DNA of 38,272 nucleotides. Origin: an uncultured bacterium. Lineage in GTDB: Bacteria; Desulfobacterota_D; UBA1144; Nemesobacterales; UBA2774. Numbering within the stretch: position 1 is the stretch's first letter; each line of letters opens with the position of its first letter. A program made the translations under genes and the position numbers. Shown piece after piece: positions 9,368 through 22,659 of the stretch. Below the pieces are notes generated by a model. The model made no database searches. It was not told the origin of the DNA and saw only the letters and a program-made list of their open reading frames with translations. Location: contig CADEFK010000003.1 of NCBI GenBank assembly GCA_902826595.1, positions 1 through 38,272 on the forward strand, given 5' to 3'.

Positions 9368-10264
9368 ATGATGGAACAGCTCATTCAGGATTTCAGGGAA
9401 TATCTGGGTTCCGAGAGGAACTACTCGAAACACACCGTCAAAGCCTACATCACCGATATCGGCGAGTTCCTGCGCGTAATAAAAGGAAAAAAGCTCGCCG
9501 GGGATAATGAAGGCGCAATCGATTTCGGGAAACTGGACGATACGCCCGTGAGGGCATATATAAGCTGGCTGTATACGAGAAACTCGAGGTCGTCCATATC
9601 GAGGAAGCTCGCGTCGGTGAGGACATTCTTCGAGTTCCTCATAAGGAAGGGCGAACTCAAAAACAACCTTGCCAAACTCGTCCCGACGCCCCGTGGGGAA
9701 AAGAGGCTCCCTACATTCCTGACGGTCGACGAAGTTGTAAAGCTCCTCAGCATAGAGGGCTCGGGCGCGCTCCTCTCGAGGGACGTCGCCGTTCTCGAGC
9801 TCCTCTACTCTAGCGGCCTCAGGGTGAGCGAGCTAGTCGGTATAAATTTGAACGACATAGACCTGAAAAACCTGACGGTCAAGGTACTAGGAAAGGGGAA
9901 CAAGGAGAGGATCGTGCCCTTAGGCTCCAAAGCCGCTCAGGCTCTCGATCAATACCTGCGCGAAAGGCCCGGCATGAAACCCGGTGGAGACCACCTGTTC
10001 GTCAACACAAGGGGAGACAGGCTCAATGTGAGGAGCGTGGACAGGATTATAAGGAAATACGCATTACTCGCCGGGATACCGAAAAACGTGAGCCCGCACG
10101 TGCTCAGGCACACCTTCGCCACGCACCTCCTCGGAGGGGGAGCCGACCTCCGTGCAATTCAGGAGATGCTCGGCCATAAGAGCCTGTCCACCACGCAGAG
10201 ATATACACATACTTCTATCGAAAAATTAATGGAAATCTACGACAAAACACACCCGAGAGCGTGA
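9368..10264 (+). CDS. xerC: Tyrosine recombinase XerC
   Basis: A 298-residue tyrosine recombinase with the N-terminal SAM-like core-binding domain (about 1-105) and the C-terminal catalytic domain. The catalytic set is complete: Arg152 (SSGLRVSEL), Lys176 ([13 protein letters not shown]), His244 and Arg247 ([12 protein letters not shown]), His270 ([14 protein letters not shown]) and nucleophile Tyr279. The length and the end [15 protein letters not shown] are typical of Xer proteins that resolve chromosome dimers at dif, not of integrases. Position directly before hslV and hslU is the same as in many Firmicutes (codV-clpQY) and some deltaproteobacteria, which favours XerC. Its last four bases overlap a possible GTG start of hslV. 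Adjacent ATGs at 9368 and 9371 cannot be told apart. Confidence 0.93.
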
Positions 10265-10266
10265 TC

Positions 10267-10800
10267 ATGGAAAACTTCCACGGAACGACTATAGTTTGCG
10301 TAAAGATCGGAGACAGGGTCGCGATGGCCGGGGACGGTCAGGTGACCCTGGGTCATGCGGCCGTCAAGCACTCCGCCAAGAAGGTGAGAAAGATATACGA
10401 GGGCAAGGTCCTCGTGGGGTTCTCAGGGGCTACGGCTGACGCCATGACACTCTTTGACAAGTTCGAGGCCAAGCTCGAGGAGTACAGGGGAAACCTCAGG
10501 AGAGCAGCCGTCGAGCTCGCGAGGGACTGGAGAACGGACCGTATCCTGCGGAGGCTCGAAGCGCTCCTGGCCGTGGCCGACAAAGACAGCATGTTCCTGA
10601 TATCAGGCAGCGGAGACGTGCTCGAGCCCGACGATAACGTCGTGGCCGTGGGCTCGGGGGGCTCGTACGCACAGGCGGCTGCGAAAGCTCTTTCCAGGCA
10701 CTCCGCGCTGGGCGCGAGGGACATTGCGGAGGAATCACTGAAGATAGCATCCGAGATTTGCATCTATACCAACGATAAAATCACCGTAGAGGAACTCTGA
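10267..10800 (+). CDS. hslV: ATP-dependent protease peptidase subunit HslV
   Basis: HslV forms the double-ring threonine peptidase of the HslVU (ClpYQ) protease in the cytoplasm. The motif [13 protein letters not shown] places the catalytic threonine at residue 7 after a short propeptide ending in Gly, as in HslV of many alpha- and deltaproteobacteria. [10 protein letters not shown], the [17 protein letters not shown] stretch and [16 protein letters not shown] are all family signatures. With the ATG at 10267 the protein is 177 residues, the usual size. A GTG two codons earlier (10261) overlaps the xerC stop and could serve as a coupled start. hslU follows 4 bases after the stop. Confidence 0.96.
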
Positions 10801-10804
10801 TAAA

Positions 10805-12136
10805 ATGAGCAGCGAAACATTTTTCACGCCTAGGGAGATAGTCTCCGAGCTCGACAGGTACATAATCGGACAGAACAAGGCGAAGCGGGCCGTTTCGATC
10901 GCGCTTCGCAACCGGTGGAGACGGCAGCGCGTCTCACCGGACCTAAAGGACGAAATCGCTCCAAAGAATATACTCATGATAGGCCCTACCGGAGTGGGTA
11001 AGACGGAGATAGCCAGAAGGCTCGCGAAGCTCGCGCAGGCCCCGTTCCTCAAGGTGGAGGCGTCGAAATTCACGGAAGTCGGTTACGTCGGCAGGGACGT
11101 CGAGTCGATGATCAGGGACCTCACGGATATCGCTATCAAGATGATAACGGACGAGGAGAAGCAGACCGTCAAGACCAAGGCCGAGGACCTCGCGGAAGAG
11201 AGGATGCTCGACCTGCTGCTCCCGCCCGTCGGGGGCGAGCAGCAGCAGACCGAGTCAAGCGGCGAAACCAGGGAGAAACTGAGGAAACTGCTCCGGGAAG
11301 GCAGGCTCAACGAAAGGTTCGTCGACATCGAAGTTACTTCGAAGAATTTCCCCATTCAGGTGTTCTCCCCTCAGGGGCTCGAAGAAATGGACGTAAACAT
11401 ATCGGACATGCTGGGGAACCTGTTCCCGAAGAAAACGAAGAAGAGGAAGGTCAGGGTGCCTGACGCTATGGAAGTTCTCATTCAGGAAGAAGCGCAAAAG
11501 CTGATAGACATGGACAACGTCGTCAAGATGGCGATCGACAGGGTCGAGCAATCCGGCATAATATTCATCGACGAGATCGATAAAGTCGCGGGGCGGGAGA
11601 GCACGGCCGGGCCCGACGTCTCCCGGGAAGGCGTCCAGAGAGACCTGCTCCCGATCATCGAAGGCTGCACCGTGAACACGAAGCACGGAATGGTGAGGAC
11701 GGACCATATCCTGTTTATCGGAGCGGGCGCGTTCCACGTATCGAAGCCTTCCGACCTTATTCCGGAGCTCCAGGGCAGATTCCCCATAAGGGTCGAGCTC
11801 GAACCGCTCACGACCGAGGACTTTATAAATATCCTGACGCAGCCCAAAAACGCCCTTATAAAGCAGTATACGGAGCTCCTCAACACGGAAAAAATAGAGC
11901 TCGTATTCAAGGACGACGCGATACAGGAAATTGCAGAGACCGCACAGACAGTAAATGAATCCATGGAAAACATCGGCGCGAGAAGACTGCACACGATAAT
12001 GGAGAGGATGCTTGACGAGATATCTTTCAACGCTCCCGATATGGCGGAGCAGAAGATCGTGATCGACGCGAAGTACGTGAAGGACAAGATAGCAGATATA
12101 GTAAAAGACAGGGACCTGAGCCGCTATATTCTATAG
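10805..12136 (+). CDS. hslU: ATP-dependent protease ATPase subunit HslU
   Basis: The AAA+ unfoldase partner of HslV. Walker A is GPTGVGKT (60-67), the pore loop is GYVG (93-96), the intermediate I-domain spans about 110-240, Walker B is IIFIDEIDK (Asp256, Glu257) and sensor 2 is GARRL near 395. The C-terminus ends LSRYIL, the tail that inserts into HslV. Length (443) is normal. The gene lies 4 bases after hslV, so the pair is co-translated. It converges on the chlorite dismutase family gene with an 87-base gap in which I see no clear terminator. Confidence 0.97.
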
Positions 12137-16156: not shown

Positions 16157-16420
16157 TTAATAATCCCCGTCTATATTGATAGTCGGGTCGTATTCTATAT
16201 TGAAAACCCTTCTTATGGGATCCGTATTGAAAACCCAGTAGGTACCCTTAACGAATACGCTCGTTATGGCGAGCGGCGGTCTCAACGCCAGGCTCGTCAG
16301 CTTAAACGGGTGCAGAGCGTCGCCCGGGTTGTACTTGTAATCTGTTATCTGCGGCGCCTGCGCCATGGCACTCGAAGCGAACAGCGCGAAACAAAGCATC
16401 AAGGCTGCGAAATATTTCAT
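16157..16420 (-). CDS. Small secreted protein of unknown function
   Basis: An 87-residue protein read from the ATG at 16420, which has GGGGAG 6 bases upstream; an ATG two codons earlier overlaps that site. Residues 1-20 form a signal peptide with a hydrophobic core and an AMA-QA cleavage site, and no lipobox cysteine at the junction. The mature part is only about 67 residues with several aromatic residues (YKYNPGD, TYWVFN, NIEYDPTIN), no cysteines and an acidic end (INIDGDY). I do not recognise the family. A near-consensus promoter and an operator-like palindrome suggest a strongly expressed, regulated product exported to the periplasm or beyond. It is divergent from the ClpX-like gene. Confidence 0.72.
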   Translation of the reverse strand: MKYFAALMLCFALFASSAMAQAPQITDYKYNPGDALHPFKLTSLALRPPLAITSVFVKGTYWVFNTDPIRRVFNIEYDPTINIDGDY

Positions 16421-16444
16421 GTCCATCTCCCCTTTAAAGTAAAG

Positions 16445-16630: not shown

Positions 16631-16659
16631 TTGAAAATGAATCGTAAAATTTATAGAAT
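16631..16659 (+). promoter_or_regulatory. Candidate promoter of the ClpX-like/rimO unit
   Basis: TTGAAA (16631-16636) and TAGAAT (16654-16659) are 17 bases apart. A second candidate is an extended -10, TGG followed by TATAAT (16613-16618), slightly upstream. Both fit the ATG at 16685. Confidence 0.45.
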
Positions 16660-16684: not shown

Positions 16685-17803
16685 ATGAGAAGGAGTGAAA
16701 AGGTTTATTATGTCAAGGACTTCATACAAACCGTCCCTCTCCCCTCACCCAAAAAGATATACAGCGAGCTTGAAAAGCTCGGTTACAGGGGACAGCCCCT
16801 CGCCAGGAAGGCGGTGTCTCTCGCCTCTTACAGGCACGTCAAGAGGCTGAAGCTCCTGCACTCGAAAAACACCCCGAGGACGAATCTGCCCCCAAGGCCG
16901 AATTCGATCCTGATGGGTCCGACCGGGTGCGGGAAGACATACCTGATCGAACTGTTATTCGGGGAGATTTTCAAGCTCCCCTTCGTTATCATAGACATGA
17001 CCAAATTCACGGAATCGGGCTACGTCGGGGACGACGTGGTGAACATACTGGTCCAGCTCGTGTATGCGGCCAACGAGAGCATAGACATCGCCGAATGCGG
17101 CGTAATCGTTCTCGACGAGTTCGACAAGATCGCGGGCGCATACAGCAGCGCAAGGTTCGCCGGACAGGGCACGACGAAAGACGTTTCGGGATACGGGGTG
17201 CAGAGGGAGCTATTAAAAATCCTCGAAGGCACGGACGTCCAGATTCCGCTCGACTTCGGTTTCTCGAGCCGAGGGCCGAGGGCGCTCATCTCCACGCGTG
17301 ACATTACGTTCTTCGCGGTCGGGGCCTTCTCGGGCATCAGGAACCTGTACGAAAGAAAGGGGGTCGGATTTATGCAGGCGCTCGAGGAGCGCTCGGGCGA
17401 CGAGGATTCGATCGCCTATCACCTGACGGACGAGGAAGCGGACGACATTACGAAGTTCCACATGTTCGGATTCCTCCCCGAGCTGATCTCGAGATACAAC
17501 AGGATCGTGCCGTTTGCCCCGCTGCACAGGAGCACGCTCAAGGAAATCATTCACATCAAGATACAAAACTACCAGAGGGAATTCGAGGAAGAGGGGTTCA
17601 AGCTCCATATTGAGCCCAAGGTCGTGGACTTCATCATCGAAGAAGCGCTCAAGAGGCAGACGGGCGCGAGGGGCCTCGACGTCATAATATCCAAATACCT
17701 GGAAGAGGTCGCTTTCGAGACGTTCGGCAAGAGCGAGGAAGGGGAGATTGTGCTCACGCTCGATTCGGACGGGGTCTCTCACATAGTCAAGAGACGCGCA
17801 TGA
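16685..17803 (+). CDS. ClpX-like AAA+ unfoldase without the zinc-binding domain
   Basis: A 372-residue AAA+ ATPase closest to ClpX. Walker A is GPTGCGKT (78-85), the pore-1 loop is GYVG (112-115, in FTESGYVGDDVVNIL), Walker B is VIVLDEFDKI (Asp144, Glu145), the arginine finger region is LISRYNRI (Arg270) and sensor 2 is GARG (327-330). All residues for ATP-driven unfolding appear present. The N-terminal C4 zinc-binding domain of true ClpX is absent: the first 70 residues hold no cysteine. The ClpP-docking IGF loop is represented only by VGF (227-229) in a shortened segment, so binding to ClpP is uncertain. It may be a ClpX paralogue with its own substrates or partner. It overlaps rimO by four bases (ATGA). 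No good Shine-Dalgarno precedes the ATG. Confidence 0.88.
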   Translation: MRRSEKVYYVKDFIQTVPLPSPKKIYSELEKLGYRGQPLARKAVSLASYRHVKRLKLLHSKNTPRTNLPPRPNSILMGPTGCGKTYLIELLFGEIFKLPFVIIDMTKFTESGYVGDDVVNILVQLVYAANESIDIAECGVIVLDEFDKIAGAYSSARFAGQGTTKDVSGYGVQRELLKILEGTDVQIPLDFGFSSRGPRALISTRDITFFAVGAFSGIRNLYERKGVGFMQALEERSGDEDSIAYHLTDEEADDITKFHMFGFLPELISRYNRIVPFAPLHRSTLKEIIHIKIQNYQREFEEEGFKLHIEPKVVDFIIEEALKRQTGARGLDVIISKYLEEVAFETFGKSEEGEIVLTLDSDGVSHIVKRRA

Positions 17804-19107
17804 AGATATCGATCGTGAGCCTCGGCTGCTCAAAGAACCTCGTAGACAGCGAAATAATCACGGGAGCGCTCGAAAACGCGGGACACGAGATCTCGTCCGA
17901 AGAGAACGCGGAAGTAATAATCGTGAACACATGCGGATTCATCGGCGACGCGAAGAAGGAATCGGTCGATACCATACTGGAGCTCTCGAAGAGGAAGGAA
18001 GAGGGAACCTGCCGTAAATTGATCGTGACCGGCTGCCTCGTCGAAAGGTACGCGGACGTGCTCAGCCGCGAGCTCCCGGAAGTCGACGCGTTCTGGGGCA
18101 CGGGGAACCTGCTCAGAATCAGCGAGGCATTAAACGACATCCAGCCGGACAGGATATACAAAAACCCTCCCGGCACACTCTACGACCCCGACACCCCGAG
18201 GGTGCCCCTCACGCCGGCACACTATGCCTACGTGAAGGTGTCGGAAGGCTGCTCGAGGACATGCTCGTTCTGCATAATCCCGAGAATGAGGGGCATAATG
18301 AAAAGCAGGCCCGTCGAATCGATCGCCGGGGAGGTAAACAGGCTTGCCGAAAGAGGGGTCAGGGAGATAAACCTCATAGCCCAGGACATGACGAGCTACG
18401 GGAGGGATATCGGAACCAACCTGGAGGACATGCTGAGGGCACTCGTCGGAGTCGACGGTATAAAATGGATAAGGATCCACTACTGCTACCCGTGGGGTAT
18501 GACGGACTCGCTCATGGAGCTCATCGCGGACGAAGAAAAGATCCTCCCTTATATCGATATGCCCCTTCAGCACATCAACGACCGGATTCTCGGTCTCATG
18601 GACAGGAAAACCCCCGCCAAAAGGATAAAGGACATCATTCACAGGCTGAGAAACCGTATTGAGAACGTGACGCTCCGGACGACTTTCATAGTCGGATTCC
18701 CGGGAGAAACGGAAGAGGAATTCGAAGAGCTCGTCGAATTCGTCAGGGAGACGGGTTTCGACAGGGCGGGCGCGTTCAAATACTCTCAGGAGGAAGGCAC
18801 TCCCGCAGGCGTGATGACCGATCAGATACCCGACGAGATTAAAGAGGAAAGATTCGAGCGGCTCATGGCGGTGCAGTCGGAAGTCTCTCTCAGAAAAAAC
18901 GAATCCCTCATAGGCTCGATTCACGAGGGGTTTATAGAGGGGAGAGAGAACGGGAACTATATAGCGAGAATTTCCTCGCAGGCGCCCGAAGTGGACGGAG
19001 TGACGTACATAAAAAGAACAGCGGCTTTAAAGAATGGAGACATGGTAAGAATTAAAATCACGGGCGCGGATATTTACGACCTTTACGGGGAAATTATCCC
19101 CCAATAA
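17800..19107 (+). CDS. rimO: Ribosomal protein S12 methylthiotransferase RimO
   Basis: A radical-SAM methylthiotransferase that adds a methylthio group to an aspartate of ribosomal protein S12. The N-terminal domain has VSLGCSKNLVDSE (Cys10), NTCGF (Cys45) and TGCL (Cys79), which bind the auxiliary iron-sulfur cluster. The radical-SAM CxxxCxxC is Cys151, Cys155 and Cys158 (GCSRTCSFC). A TRAM domain forms the last 65 or so residues. LGCSKNLVDSE and the 435-residue length favour RimO over MiaB. Translation is coupled to the ClpX-like gene by the ATGA overlap. It converges on cofH with 9 bases between the stops. Confidence 0.96.
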   Translation: MKISIVSLGCSKNLVDSEIITGALENAGHEISSEENAEVIIVNTCGFIGDAKKESVDTILELSKRKEEGTCRKLIVTGCLVERYADVLSRELPEVDAFWGTGNLLRISEALNDIQPDRIYKNPPGTLYDPDTPRVPLTPAHYAYVKVSEGCSRTCSFCIIPRMRGIMKSRPVESIAGEVNRLAERGVREINLIAQDMTSYGRDIGTNLEDMLRALVGVDGIKWIRIHYCYPWGMTDSLMELIADEEKILPYIDMPLQHINDRILGLMDRKTPAKRIKDIIHRLRNRIENVTLRTTFIVGFPGETEEEFEELVEFVRETGFDRAGAFKYSQEEGTPAGVMTDQIPDEIKEERFERLMAVQSEVSLRKNESLIGSIHEGFIEGRENGNYIARISSQAPEVDGVTYIKRTAALKNGDMVRIKITGADIYDLYGEIIPQ

Positions 19108-19116
19108 CCCCCATAA

Positions 19117-20322
19117 TCACTGCGCGGCTTCATTCCGGGAGAACATCTGTCTTATACCGTAGGTTGTAGTTCTCTCGGCAGGTATCCTGCCTATTTCCCA
19201 CGTGAGGCGCCTGAACTCATCGGGCGGGAAGTACTGCCCGTAGCCTGCGCCTGCCGAGCGCGAAATCGACTCCTCCATCAGCGTGCCGCCGAAATCGTTC
19301 GCCCCCGCCGTGAGCGAGAACTGCGCGAACTCCGGGCCCTGTTTTACCCATGAGACCTGTATGTTATTAATCCAGCCCCTGAGCATGAGCCTCGAGACGC
19401 CGTACATCTTGAGCTGGTTGAGATCTCCCGGGCCCTCCTGAACCTTACCCTTGGAGTGCTTGTAGAGTCTCGTGTTCCAGGGTATGAACCTGAGCGGGAC
19501 AAACTCGGTGAAGCCGCCCGTCTCTTTCTGGATGTCGCGCAGGATGCCGATGTGCTCGGCCCAGTGACGGGGCTTGTCCACGTGACCGTACATTATCGTG
19601 GACGTGGTACGCATGCCCGCCTTATGCGCTTTCTTCACTATCCTTATCCACGCCTCTGTGGGCATCTTTCGCGGGGCGATTATTTTTCTGACCTCTTCGA
19701 CGAGTATCTCGGCCGCAGTCCCGGGAAACGTGTTGTGGCCGACGTCTTTCAGCTTTCCGATGAACACCTCTTCACTTATTCCCAGTGTCTCGGCGCCGTA
19801 GTATATCTCGAACGGCGAGAAGGCGTGCGTGTGCATTTCGGGCACAGCCTTTTTCACGGCCTTGATGAGCTCTATATAAAAATTCCCGTCTATATCGGGG
19901 TGCATCCCGCCCTGCATGCAGACTTCCGTAGCCCCTATATCCCAGGCCTCTTTCACCTTATCCGCAATCTCGTCCATGGAGAGGAAGTACGCCCTCTCGT
20001 CGCCCTCGGGGGCCATGAAATTGCAGAATCCGCAGTAGGTATTGCAAATATTCGTGAAGTTGATATTCCGGTTGACCACGTATGTTACGACGTCCCCGAC
20101 GTCCTCCTTCCTAATCTCGTCTGCGGCAATGGCGAGCGCGGACAATTCGTCAGGGTCGGTAATATTAAAAAGCTCCTCCGCTTCCCCGACTGTGATCTCA
20201 TCGCCCGAGAGCGCCTTGTTCAGGATCCTGCCCGTCGTGCCGTTGACCTTCCCCAGAATGCCGTCCAGCCCCAGGCCCCTGTTCTCTTCAATCCGTTCTA
20301 CAGCCTCTTTAATATGCTCCAT
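19117..20322 (-). CDS. cofH: FO synthase subunit 2 (CofH)
   Basis: CofH is the radical-SAM enzyme that joins a tyrosine-derived fragment to 5-amino-6-ribitylaminouracil, the first step of FO (deazaflavin) formation. The CxxxCxxC motif is NICNTYCGFC (Cys93, Cys97, Cys100 from the chosen start), followed by the family stretches GATEVCMQGGMHPD and MHTHAFSPFEIYYGA. Near the C-terminus QFSLTAGANDFGGTLMEE is conserved in CofH/MqnC relatives; adjacency to cofG and cofD excludes a menaquinone (MqnC) role. The start at 20322 is set by a strong GAGGAGG just upstream; it lies 14 bases inside the end of cofG, so the two are coupled. The length is 401 residues. Confidence 0.93.
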   Translation of the reverse strand: MEHIKEAVERIEENRGLGLDGILGKVNGTTGRILNKALSGDEITVGEAEELFNITDPDELSALAIAADEIRKEDVGDVVTYVVNRNINFTNICNTYCGFCNFMAPEGDERAYFLSMDEIADKVKEAWDIGATEVCMQGGMHPDIDGNFYIELIKAVKKAVPEMHTHAFSPFEIYYGAETLGISEEVFIGKLKDVGHNTFPGTAAEILVEEVRKIIAPRKMPTEAWIRIVKKAHKAGMRTTSTIMYGHVDKPRHWAEHIGILRDIQKETGGFTEFVPLRFIPWNTRLYKHSKGKVQEGPGDLNQLKMYGVSRLMLRGWINNIQVSWVKQGPEFAQFSLTAGANDFGGTLMEESISRSAGAGYGQYFPPDEFRRLTWEIGRIPAERTTTYGIRQMFSRNEAAQ

Positions 20323-21589
20323 TGGATACCTCCTCGGAAGGGACGTAACCCTGCTCGTCCACGGCATCCCTAACCAGCCTGAGCAGATCGTCGTTTATGT
20401 ATTTACCGTCTATGAATTCGGGGTATACGGGCAGTCTTTCCCTGAGCGTAAAACCCAGATCCTCTATAATTTCCCGCATTATTTCAAGCTTCGGCCAGGG
20501 GGCTTCCGGGTTGACGTAATCTATCGTAATCGGGGACACGCCCCCCAGATCGTTTACGCCGGCCTCGACGAACAACGGATATGTGCCGGGATTGAGATTG
20601 GGCGGAATCTGTATATTCATCCCCTCCCCGAAAATGAGCCTCGAGACCGCGACTATCTTAAGCATGTCGATGAAATCGGGCGGCGGGTACTTCTCCATGA
20701 TTATCCCCTGTTTCGGGCTGAAATTCTGAATTATGATTTCCTGAATATGGCCGAACGCGTCGTTTAGCTCCTTTAACGCGTAAAGCGAATCTATCCTTTC
20801 TTCCCATGTCTCTCCGATGCCGACGAGTATCCCGGAGGTCCATGGAATCCGGAGCTCCCCCGCGAGTTCCATTGTTTTCATCCTGTGCCTTGGCACCTTA
20901 TCGGGGCATCCGTGATGAGCCTCGCCCTTTTTGAGGAGTCTCGAGCTTATGTTCTCGAGCATCAGGCCCATGCTCGGATTCGATTCACGCAAGGCTGAAA
21001 GCTCGTCCCTCGTGGCGAGACCGAGGTTCGTATGAGGGAATATGCGCTCCCTCAAACCCGCCTCTCCCATCGCGATCAGGTATTCGGCAGTGCTCTCATA
21101 CCCGAGCTTGCCCAGGGCTTCACGATATACCGGATAAAGGAGCTCGGGCTTGTCTCCGGTCACGAAGAGGAGCTCCGTGCAGCCCAACTGCGCCCCCTTC
21201 TTGGCCATCCCCACGACCTCTTCGGGCGCGAGAAAAAGCGGGCCCTCTCCCGGCTCGTATTTGAACGTACAGTATCCGCAGCGGTTACGGCAGAGCTGCG
21301 TGAGCGGCACGAAAACGTTCCTGGAGAACGTAAGCGTCCTGCCCTTCCCGTTGTCTCTTATCCTTGAGGCCGACTGCAGAAGGAACGGCACTTGTTCCCT
21401 TTCCAGCTTTGAGAGAGATATTGCATCTTCGCGGCGGAGCGATTCACCGTTTTCAACCCCGGACAGAATTTCCCGTAATTCCGGCGATTGAGTCCCGGCA
21501 GACACGTATGGGCCGGAATTCATGGAGGACAGGTAATTGGCCCCCGCAGTTCCGGTACAGCAATCCGGTTTTTTATCAAAAGTTGGCAT
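20309..21589 (-). CDS. cofG: FO synthase subunit 1 (CofG)
   Basis: CofG is the radical-SAM enzyme that closes the deazaflavin ring (7,8-didemethyl-8-hydroxy-5-deazariboflavin, FO) after CofH. The motif is LCRNRCGYCTF (Cys100, Cys104, Cys107), with LFVTGDKPE and GILVGIGETWEERIDSL downstream; VNDLGGVSPIT and the end region match the family. About 90 residues precede the cluster motif, and the first 30 (including Cys10, Cys11) look like a poorly conserved extension, so a later start is possible. It follows cofD by 143 bases and overlaps cofH. In Actinobacteria the two enzymes are usually fused as FbiC; here they are separate, as in archaea and cyanobacteria. Confidence 0.93.
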   Translation of the reverse strand: MPTFDKKPDCCTGTAGANYLSSMNSGPYVSAGTQSPELREILSGVENGESLRREDAISLSKLEREQVPFLLQSASRIRDNGKGRTLTFSRNVFVPLTQLCRNRCGYCTFKYEPGEGPLFLAPEEVVGMAKKGAQLGCTELLFVTGDKPELLYPVYREALGKLGYESTAEYLIAMGEAGLRERIFPHTNLGLATRDELSALRESNPSMGLMLENISSRLLKKGEAHHGCPDKVPRHRMKTMELAGELRIPWTSGILVGIGETWEERIDSLYALKELNDAFGHIQEIIIQNFSPKQGIIMEKYPPPDFIDMLKIVAVSRLIFGEGMNIQIPPNLNPGTYPLFVEAGVNDLGGVSPITIDYVNPEAPWPKLEIMREIIEDLGFTLRERLPVYPEFIDGKYINDDLLRLVRDAVDEQGYVPSEEVSNGAY

Positions 21590-21599
21590 ATCTATTCCG

Positions 21600-21628
21600 A
21601 TTATATAATTAAACCAGATATTTAATCA
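21600..21628 (-). promoter_or_regulatory. Possible cofG promoter with a half-site over the -35
   Basis: TATAAT (21600-21605, minus strand) ends 11 bases before the cofG ATG, without a clear ribosome site. The -35 position is poor in consensus but is covered by TGATTAA/TTAATCA (21622-21628), the same heptamer found in the palindrome at 21672-21689. A weak -35 overlaid by a protein site is what an activator-dependent promoter looks like (inference). Confidence 0.35.
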
Positions 21629-21671
21629 GATAAAAGCCTCGACCCGATGATACCAGCGGCCGCATCACCCC

Positions 21672-21689
21672 TGATTAACCTATTAATCA
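21672..21689. promoter_or_regulatory. Operator-like palindrome between cofD and cofG
   Basis: TGATTAACCTATTAATCA is a perfect 7-base inverted repeat around four bases. A third copy of the arm lies at 21622-21628. The AT-rich arms in an otherwise GC-rich region suggest a dimeric regulator site for cofGH. Confidence 0.45.
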
Positions 21690-21732
21690 TCGCATAAACG
21701 GGTAAAACTTGTCAAGGAGAACCGGCCGGCGG

Positions 21733-22659
21733 TTATATCCCGGAGAGCACGGCCGCGGCGAGTTTGGCCGCCCTTGAACGATCGGACATCAGGGTGTCGA
21801 GCACGACGGGTTTGATCCCCATATCGCTGATTATTTCGGCCTCCCAGGCGTCTTCCGTGTCGATAACCATGACGTCGAGAAAATCCCTGTAGAGTCTCGC
21901 GACCCCCGCCGAAGACACCTCGAGGCCGAGTCCCCTCATCAGCTTGTCGGCGGGCCCCTTGAGCGGCACCCCCCCTATAAGCGGGCTAATGGCGACGATC
22001 TTCGCCCCCGCAGCCCGGAGCGCTTCCCGGATACCTTTTATATTCAGTATCGGCCCTATGCTGATAATAGGGTTGCTCGGGCAAAGAATAATTATCCTGG
22101 CATCCGTTATCGCTTCCATTACGCCCGGAGCGGGCGCGGCATTGTGAATATTCCTGAAAACCACCTTTAACACGTCCGGCTTCATCTTCCGTTTAACGAA
22201 ATATTCCTGGAAGTGCATCTCCCCTTCATCGGTCACGATCCATGTCTCGACATCCTCATCCGTCATAGGAAGAACCGTGATGCCCTCTTTCAAACCGAAG
22301 GCCACGGAGAGCTTCGACGTGACTTGAGAGGGAGTGAACCCCTCCCGTCTCAGCTGTGTCCTGTATAGATGGGTGGCGAAATCCTTATCTCCTATATTGA
22401 ACCATGTCTCGGAGCCGAATCTCGAAAGCGCAGACAGGCAGCCGAACGTGTCGCCCCTTACCCCCCAGCCCTTATTCGCATCTATCAGGCCTGATAGCCT
22501 GTATATTACGGTATCGACATCGGGAGAGACACTGAGACCGTGTAAAACGATGTCGTCACCGGTATTTACGACAACCGACAGCCCCTCTCCGCCGATTACT
22601 TCAGACAGTCCTTCCAGGAATTTAGCGGCACCGACGCCCCCGCCTAAAGCAGTTATCAT
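21733..22659 (-). CDS. cofD: 2-phospho-L-lactate (or phosphoenolpyruvyl) transferase CofD
   Basis: CofD transfers the phospholactyl or enolpyruvyl phosphate group from the guanylyl-activated donor to FO, giving F420-0 or its dehydro form. The N-terminus ITALGGGVGAAKFLEGL and VVNTGDDIVLHGLSVSPDVDTVIYRL are diagnostic, followed by GWGVRGDTF, WFNIGDKDFATHLYRT and CPSNPIISIGPIL. The length (308) is normal. It is the first gene of a minus-strand group cofD-cofG-cofH, with a 143-base gap before cofG that carries regulatory-looking repeats. The ATG at 22659 has only a distant AAGG. The genes for the donor (cofC/fbiD) and the glutamate ligase (cofE/fbiB) are not in the window. Confidence 0.95.
   Translation of the reverse strand: MITALGGGVGAAKFLEGLSEVIGGEGLSVVVNTGDDIVLHGLSVSPDVDTVIYRLSGLIDANKGWGVRGDTFGCLSALSRFGSETWFNIGDKDFATHLYRTQLRREGFTPSQVTSKLSVAFGLKEGITVLPMTDEDVETWIVTDEGEMHFQEYFVKRKMKPDVLKVVFRNIHNAAPAPGVMEAITDARIIILCPSNPIISIGPILNIKGIREALRAAGAKIVAISPLIGGVPLKGPADKLMRGLGLEVSSAGVARLYRDFLDVMVIDTEDAWEAEIISDMGIKPVVLDTLMSDRSRAAKLAAAVLSGI

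Follow-up and report, generated by a model that had tools for sequence, protein, structure and literature searches.

ClpX is among the best-studied protein-unfolding machines, and its choice of substrates is explained largely by two parts, the zinc domain, which binds adaptors, and the RKH loop. This loop, found only in enzymes of the ClpX family, participates in the recognition of ssrA (PMC7112951, PMC7652416). Docking on ClpP is mediated by another loop with the motif (L/I/V)-G-(F/L), and VGF is among its common forms (PMC8745299). In Escherichia coli ClpX an altered length of this IGF loop or even the exchange I268L lowers ClpP binding (PMC7112951). From Myxococcus xanthus three ClpX proteins were described by Wan et al. 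2024, one of which, ClpX3 (MXAN_2743), lacks the N-domain as well as the RKH motif; without it, cells grow more slowly at 36 °C (PMC11423568).

Here, we describe a ClpX-like gene from an uncultured bacterium whose nearest named relatives are the Candidatus Dadabacteria. The window, i.e. the whole stretch of DNA that was analyzed, comprises 38,272 nucleotides, and all features given below lie on its forward strand unless stated otherwise. The open reading frame 16685–17803 is a real gene that encodes an intact ClpX-type AAA+ ATPase of 372 amino acids; for this protein and its relatives the label CXL was coined in this analysis. Its typical conserved regions, located by sequence and alignment, are the Walker A motif GPTGCGKT (aa 78–85, 16916–16939), the pore-1 loop GYVG (aa 112–115, 17018–17029), the Walker B motif GVIVLDEFD (aa 139–147 with DEFD at 144–147, 17099–17125), the arginine finger R270 (17492–17494) and the sensor-2 motif GAR (aa 327–329, 17663–17671). 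In an alignment of 42 relatives G81, G83, T85, G112, Y113, G115, D144, E145, D147 and R270 are invariant. A Pfam search of the protein matched AAA_2 and the D2-small domain and found no zf-C4_ClpX (PF06689). Both the intact catalytic motifs and the missing C4 zinc domain had been read from the DNA in the original prediction and hold on closer analysis. The dN/dS values of 0.029–0.033 against the three closest genomes indicate purifying selection, so that CXL is a working gene rather than a relic. In a genome-by-genome comparison it diverges somewhat faster than ClpX, with identities (CXL/ClpX) of 95.4/98.6%, 90.3/93.7%, 79.6/90.4% and 82.2/82.7%.

In place of the zinc domain the alignment shows an N-terminal tail of 17 residues, MRRSEKVYYVKDFIQTV (aa 1–17, 16685–16735), in which YVKD..Q is invariant in Dadabacteria. 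The position of the RKH loop is occupied by the segment PLDFGFSSRGPR (aa 188–199, 17246–17281), i.e. LDFGFSSRGPR in CXL versus GGRKHPQQEF in the ClpX of the same genome, and its core DFGF[S/T]SR is common to many myxobacterial CXL proteins. The original prediction had overlooked the loss of the RKH loop, by which the protein departs from ClpX more strongly than by the VGF tripeptide discussed below. Two members of Dadabacteria family f4 (L166:1492-2922 and L167:1348-2724) carry two tandem N-terminal C4 zinc domains of the ClpX type on a HisC-like class I/II aminotransferase, encoded in L166 behind a hisD-like reading frame; the genome of the window itself has no such fusion.

The maximum-likelihood tree of 74 rows unites the CXL sequences in one clade of 37 rows (support 100/99, present in all 200 bootstrap trees), opposite to all ClpX, Myxococcus ClpX3-like and HslU rows. 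The stem of the clade measures 1.7 changes per site; the tree is unrooted with long branches and leaves the order of the three branches unfixed. The tree with ClpX that the original prediction had called for thus places the protein outside ordinary ClpX, and on this phylogeny CXL is a conserved sister branch of ClpX. No name for this branch was found, and the library searched yielded nothing on ClpX-like proteins lacking the N-domain, on ClpX paralogs or on ClpX of Dadabacteria, nor biochemical data for the clade. A mobile-element origin was discarded, as plasmid and phage searches gave matches no better than ordinary ClpX would (193 bits for the best of those listed).

Orthologues occur in 23 of the 58 genomes sampled from the bacterium's own phylum, namely in families f1 (15/16, the one genome without CXL being 59% complete), f4 (7/7) and f2 (1/1), with none in f3, f5, f6, f7 and f8. 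Outside Dadabacteria, relatives with about 37–53% identity were detected in Myxococcota (64/195 genomes, sampled as the phylum of an Anaeromyxobacter MAG), in the WOR-3 phylum (5/147) and in the Lentisphaerae phylum (3/289). All these counts rest on an E-value limit set to exclude ordinary ClpX and may miss distant members. The Lentisphaerae frames are longer (564–694 aa) and may carry N-terminal extensions. Tandem pairs of CXL genes lie in the Anaeromyxobacter MAG (L096:461-2451, same place in L051) and in a genome of the Lentisphaerae phylum (L137:3388-6038). Other zinc-less ClpX-like proteins that are not CXL were seen in planctomycete, Lachnospiraceae and Bacilli MAGs (L052, L053, L054 and L055), and two of them (L053 and L054) have no xGF tripeptide.

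It could be argued that CXL is an ordinary ClpX that recently lost its N-domain and still handles the same substrates. Fold and catalytic motifs are the same, and the Myxococcus ClpX3 is a published zinc-less case (PMC11423568). Against this stand the deep and separate clade, the missing RKH loop and an identity of 35% between CXL and the ClpX of its own genome, compared with 45% between Dadabacteria and Myxococcus CXL. Among NCBIfam families ClpX is the best for CXL, yet the protein scores far below the cut-offs of the two curated models (232 bits versus 359 and 199 bits versus 371). On the equivalog model with cut-off 359 four CXL proteins reach 200–232 bits, whereas the ClpX of the own genome reaches 644 and the Myxococcus ClpX3-like protein, which passes one of the two models, 378. 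Taken together, these values make a recently truncated ordinary ClpX very improbable.

A canonical ClpX and a ClpP, for which the original prediction had recommended searching the genome, are both present. The ClpX, with zinc domain, is encoded on another contig in a tig-clpP-clpX operon, where clpP and a trigger-factor-like gene immediately precede it, and contains the only PF06689 match of the genome. Since this canonical ClpX exists, CXL is a second ClpX-type unfoldase and not the ClpX of the genome. This agrees with the proposal of a ClpX paralogue made at the outset. There is a single strong ClpP (283 bits; the only other match is weak with 21.9 bits), and each Dadabacteria genome tested has exactly one strong ClpP. 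As ClpP is nearly universal, its co-occurrence with CXL says little, and linkage of the CXL gene to clpP was not seen in any flank examined.

HslV is the other peptidase to be considered. As noted from the beginning, hslV (10261–10800) and hslU (10805–12136) lie upstream in the window, which is context only; in family f1 the pair is found 4.5 kb before CXL, and 22 of 25 CXL carriers examined possess HslV. CXL might therefore be taken for an alternative ATPase of HslV. However, HslV was not found in three CXL carriers from the Lentisphaerae phylum, which speaks against a general partnership, and in f4 genomes hslVU and CXL are on separate contigs. In the protein itself the I-domain is missing, and the C-terminal sequence VSHIVKRRA is unlike the DLSRYIL of the HslU in the window. 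We regard a partnership with HslV as highly unlikely.

The tripeptide VGF (aa 227–229, 17363–17371) aligns with the IGF position of ClpX and is part of a loop (aa 224–243) that is predicted to be disordered. The original prediction had called this docking loop weakened, reduced to VGF in a shorter segment. The position of VGF and a shortening by about four residues, observed in Dadabacteria and WOR-3 CXL, are correct: between F215 and G228 there are 12 residues in Dadabacteria CXL, 16–17 in myxobacterial CXL and 16 in ClpX (another definition counts one residue fewer). The weakening is not, as VGF falls within the published motif and G228 and F229 are invariant in 42 of 42 relatives. In these, LGF occurs 15 times, VGF 13, IGF 7, MGF 6 and AGF once, and the canonical ClpX rows of the set likewise include IGF, LGF and MGF. 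The entropy at G228 and F229 is zero, while the surrounding stretches average 2.3–2.6 bits versus 1.41 bits for the whole protein.

These features bear on a further reading, in which CXL works alone as an unfoldase or remodeller, without peptidase, with targets such as ribosomal or Fe-S proteins in the neighbourhood of RimO. The loss of the zinc domain and the RKH loop, the shortened docking loop and the methionine or alanine at the first docking position in some species would all be compatible with such a protein. Against this reading stands the constant G-F pair among neighbours that vary more than almost all other parts, and the conserved loop argues both against a stand-alone enzyme and against the use of another peptidase, as had been considered originally. 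Of the three observations that the original prediction had listed as speaking against itself, i.e. no other ClpX in the genome, a place within ordinary ClpX and a VGF loop conserved for docking, only the last was made. Considering the shorter loop and the effects of loop length and I268L in E. coli ClpX, docking of CXL on ClpP is rated as no more than likely.

The AlphaFold2 model of CXL has a mean pLDDT of 83, with three stretches below 50 (aa 1–7, 153–167 and 224–243). The last of these coincides with the docking loop, and its modelled disorder is as expected for a mobile docking segment. Among solved structures the top matches of the model are ClpX chains in ClpXP complexes (Z 30–33), followed by HslU (Z about 25).

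Downstream, the stop codon of CXL and the start codon of rimO (17800–19107) share an ATGA at 17800–17803. The latter gene encodes the ribosomal protein S12 methylthiotransferase (TIGR01125, 505 bits with cut-off 357), so the overlap with rimO reported earlier is real. Where Dadabacteria carriers offer enough sequence, CXL is nearly always followed by rimO, in most cases with the ATGA overlap. The order CXL-rimO-fmt holds for the f4 and f2 loci that were read, with fmt recognized by eye from the start MGTPEFA; two f4 genera (L139 and L018) have fmt directly after CXL. Upstream, f1 genomes have argB-argD-argF and hslVU. In the myxobacterial and WOR-3 flanks examined the rimO/fmt context was not seen and other genes are present, so the linkage to translation genes is a Dadabacteria trait for which shared expression alone could account. 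The coupling to rimO, often with fmt behind, would suit a stand-alone remodeller of RimO-linked targets, but the gene was not seen near rimO outside Dadabacteria; together with the conserved docking pair this leaves the peptidase-free enzyme a rather unlikely alternative. A role at the ribosome is hypothetical, the one argument for it being the conserved adjacency to rimO and fmt within Dadabacteria.

A sigma-70-like promoter, TTGAAA-N17-TAGAAT, was located at 16631–16659, 25 bp before the ATG, by scanning a region in which about two such sites would arise by chance. The pattern TTGAAA, 16–17 bp, TANAAT recurs 22–27 bp before the start in 12 of 22 carriers, including f1 and f4. A sigma-32 heat-shock promoter, suggested by the box CTTGAAA, was dropped because the -10 box is of the sigma-70 type. 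A defence-island reading was also abandoned: the AbiE-like pair (named by eye) upstream of the WOR-3 locus L049 is a context not shared by other carriers. On the reverse strand two further regions flank CXL and rimO in the window. The first, at 16157–16426 next to CXL, is an 89-aa reading frame with a signal-peptide-like start, without Pfam match and conserved at 62–92% in several f1 genera; the second, at 19117–22659, contains cofH, a cofG-like radical SAM gene and cofD of an F420-type cofactor pathway.

Considering the observed clade, motifs, predicted fold, purifying selection and gene order, we suggest with a probability of roughly 60% that CXL is an ancient ClpX-type paralogue that serves as a second unfoldase for the single ClpP and delivers a different substrate set. 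It would form a third branch beside ClpX and HslU, assemble as a hexameric ring and, by ATP hydrolysis, pull proteins through its GYVG pore. Its (V/L/I/M)-G-F loop would dock on the single ClpP of the genome, which would thus be supplied by two ClpX-type unfoldases. Since the zinc domain for adaptor binding and the RKH loop for ssrA recognition are both absent, CXL would ignore ssrA and SspB-type delivery, and other substrates without classical adaptors are predicted; these would be chosen via its own entry segment (DFGFSSR) and the N-terminal tail. For Dadabacteria we consider it probable that the gene is expressed from a sigma-70-like promoter of its own and that its translation is coupled to that of rimO. 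In a more far-reaching version, CXL would be a third functional class within the ClpX/HslU lineage, and its Dadabacteria members, coupled to rimO and fmt, would take part in translation quality control. Ribosomal or nascent proteins that are faulty or unmodified would then be passed to ClpP via the non-ssrA entry segment; this version appears quite doubtful.

A sister branch that has neither zinc domain nor RKH loop but retains the docking G-F provides a naturally occurring test of the function of both parts, and it suggests a second set of ClpP substrates. Carriers among Myxococcus-like genomes, assigned as such from gene content and map positions, make the question directly testable, as their published relative M. 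xanthus is genetically tractable. The Myxococcus-like genomes examined encode four full-length proteins of the ClpX type. Two carry the zinc domain, the third is ClpX3-like and the fourth is CXL (the set comprises L172 as CXL, L197 as ClpX3-like, L162 and L150; genome G202). Identity to ClpX is 45–48% for the ClpX3-like protein and 36% for CXL, which fails the ClpX model. An equation of CXL with M. xanthus ClpX3 was therefore rejected, since these genomes possess, in addition to CXL, a distinct ClpX3-like protein that falls on the side of ClpX in the tree. Myxococcus CXL appears to be a fourth copy beyond the three counted in the M. xanthus paper.

Compared with known systems, CXL is closest to ClpX (NF003745 / TIGR00382), with which it shares the fold, the AAA+ motifs, GYVG, sensor 2 and the (L/I/V)-G-F tripeptide. 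It differs by the missing C4 zinc domain and RKH loop, the docking loop shorter by about four residues, its separate clade and the lack of clpP linkage. HslU (ClpY) has a related AAA+ core and, like CXL, no zinc domain; it is nevertheless distinguished by the I-domain between the Walker motifs, as seen in the alignment with the HslU of the window, by its C-terminus and by a weaker structural match, and on the HslU model CXL obtains 88 bits versus a cut-off of 362. M. xanthus ClpX3 resembles CXL in having neither N-domain nor RKH motif and is a precedent for a ClpX paralogue that fulfils a separate role without a zinc domain. In contrast with CXL, its counterpart L197 (the putative equivalent of MXAN_2743, to judge from features and map position) belongs to the ClpX side of the tree and is recognized by one of the two ClpX models.
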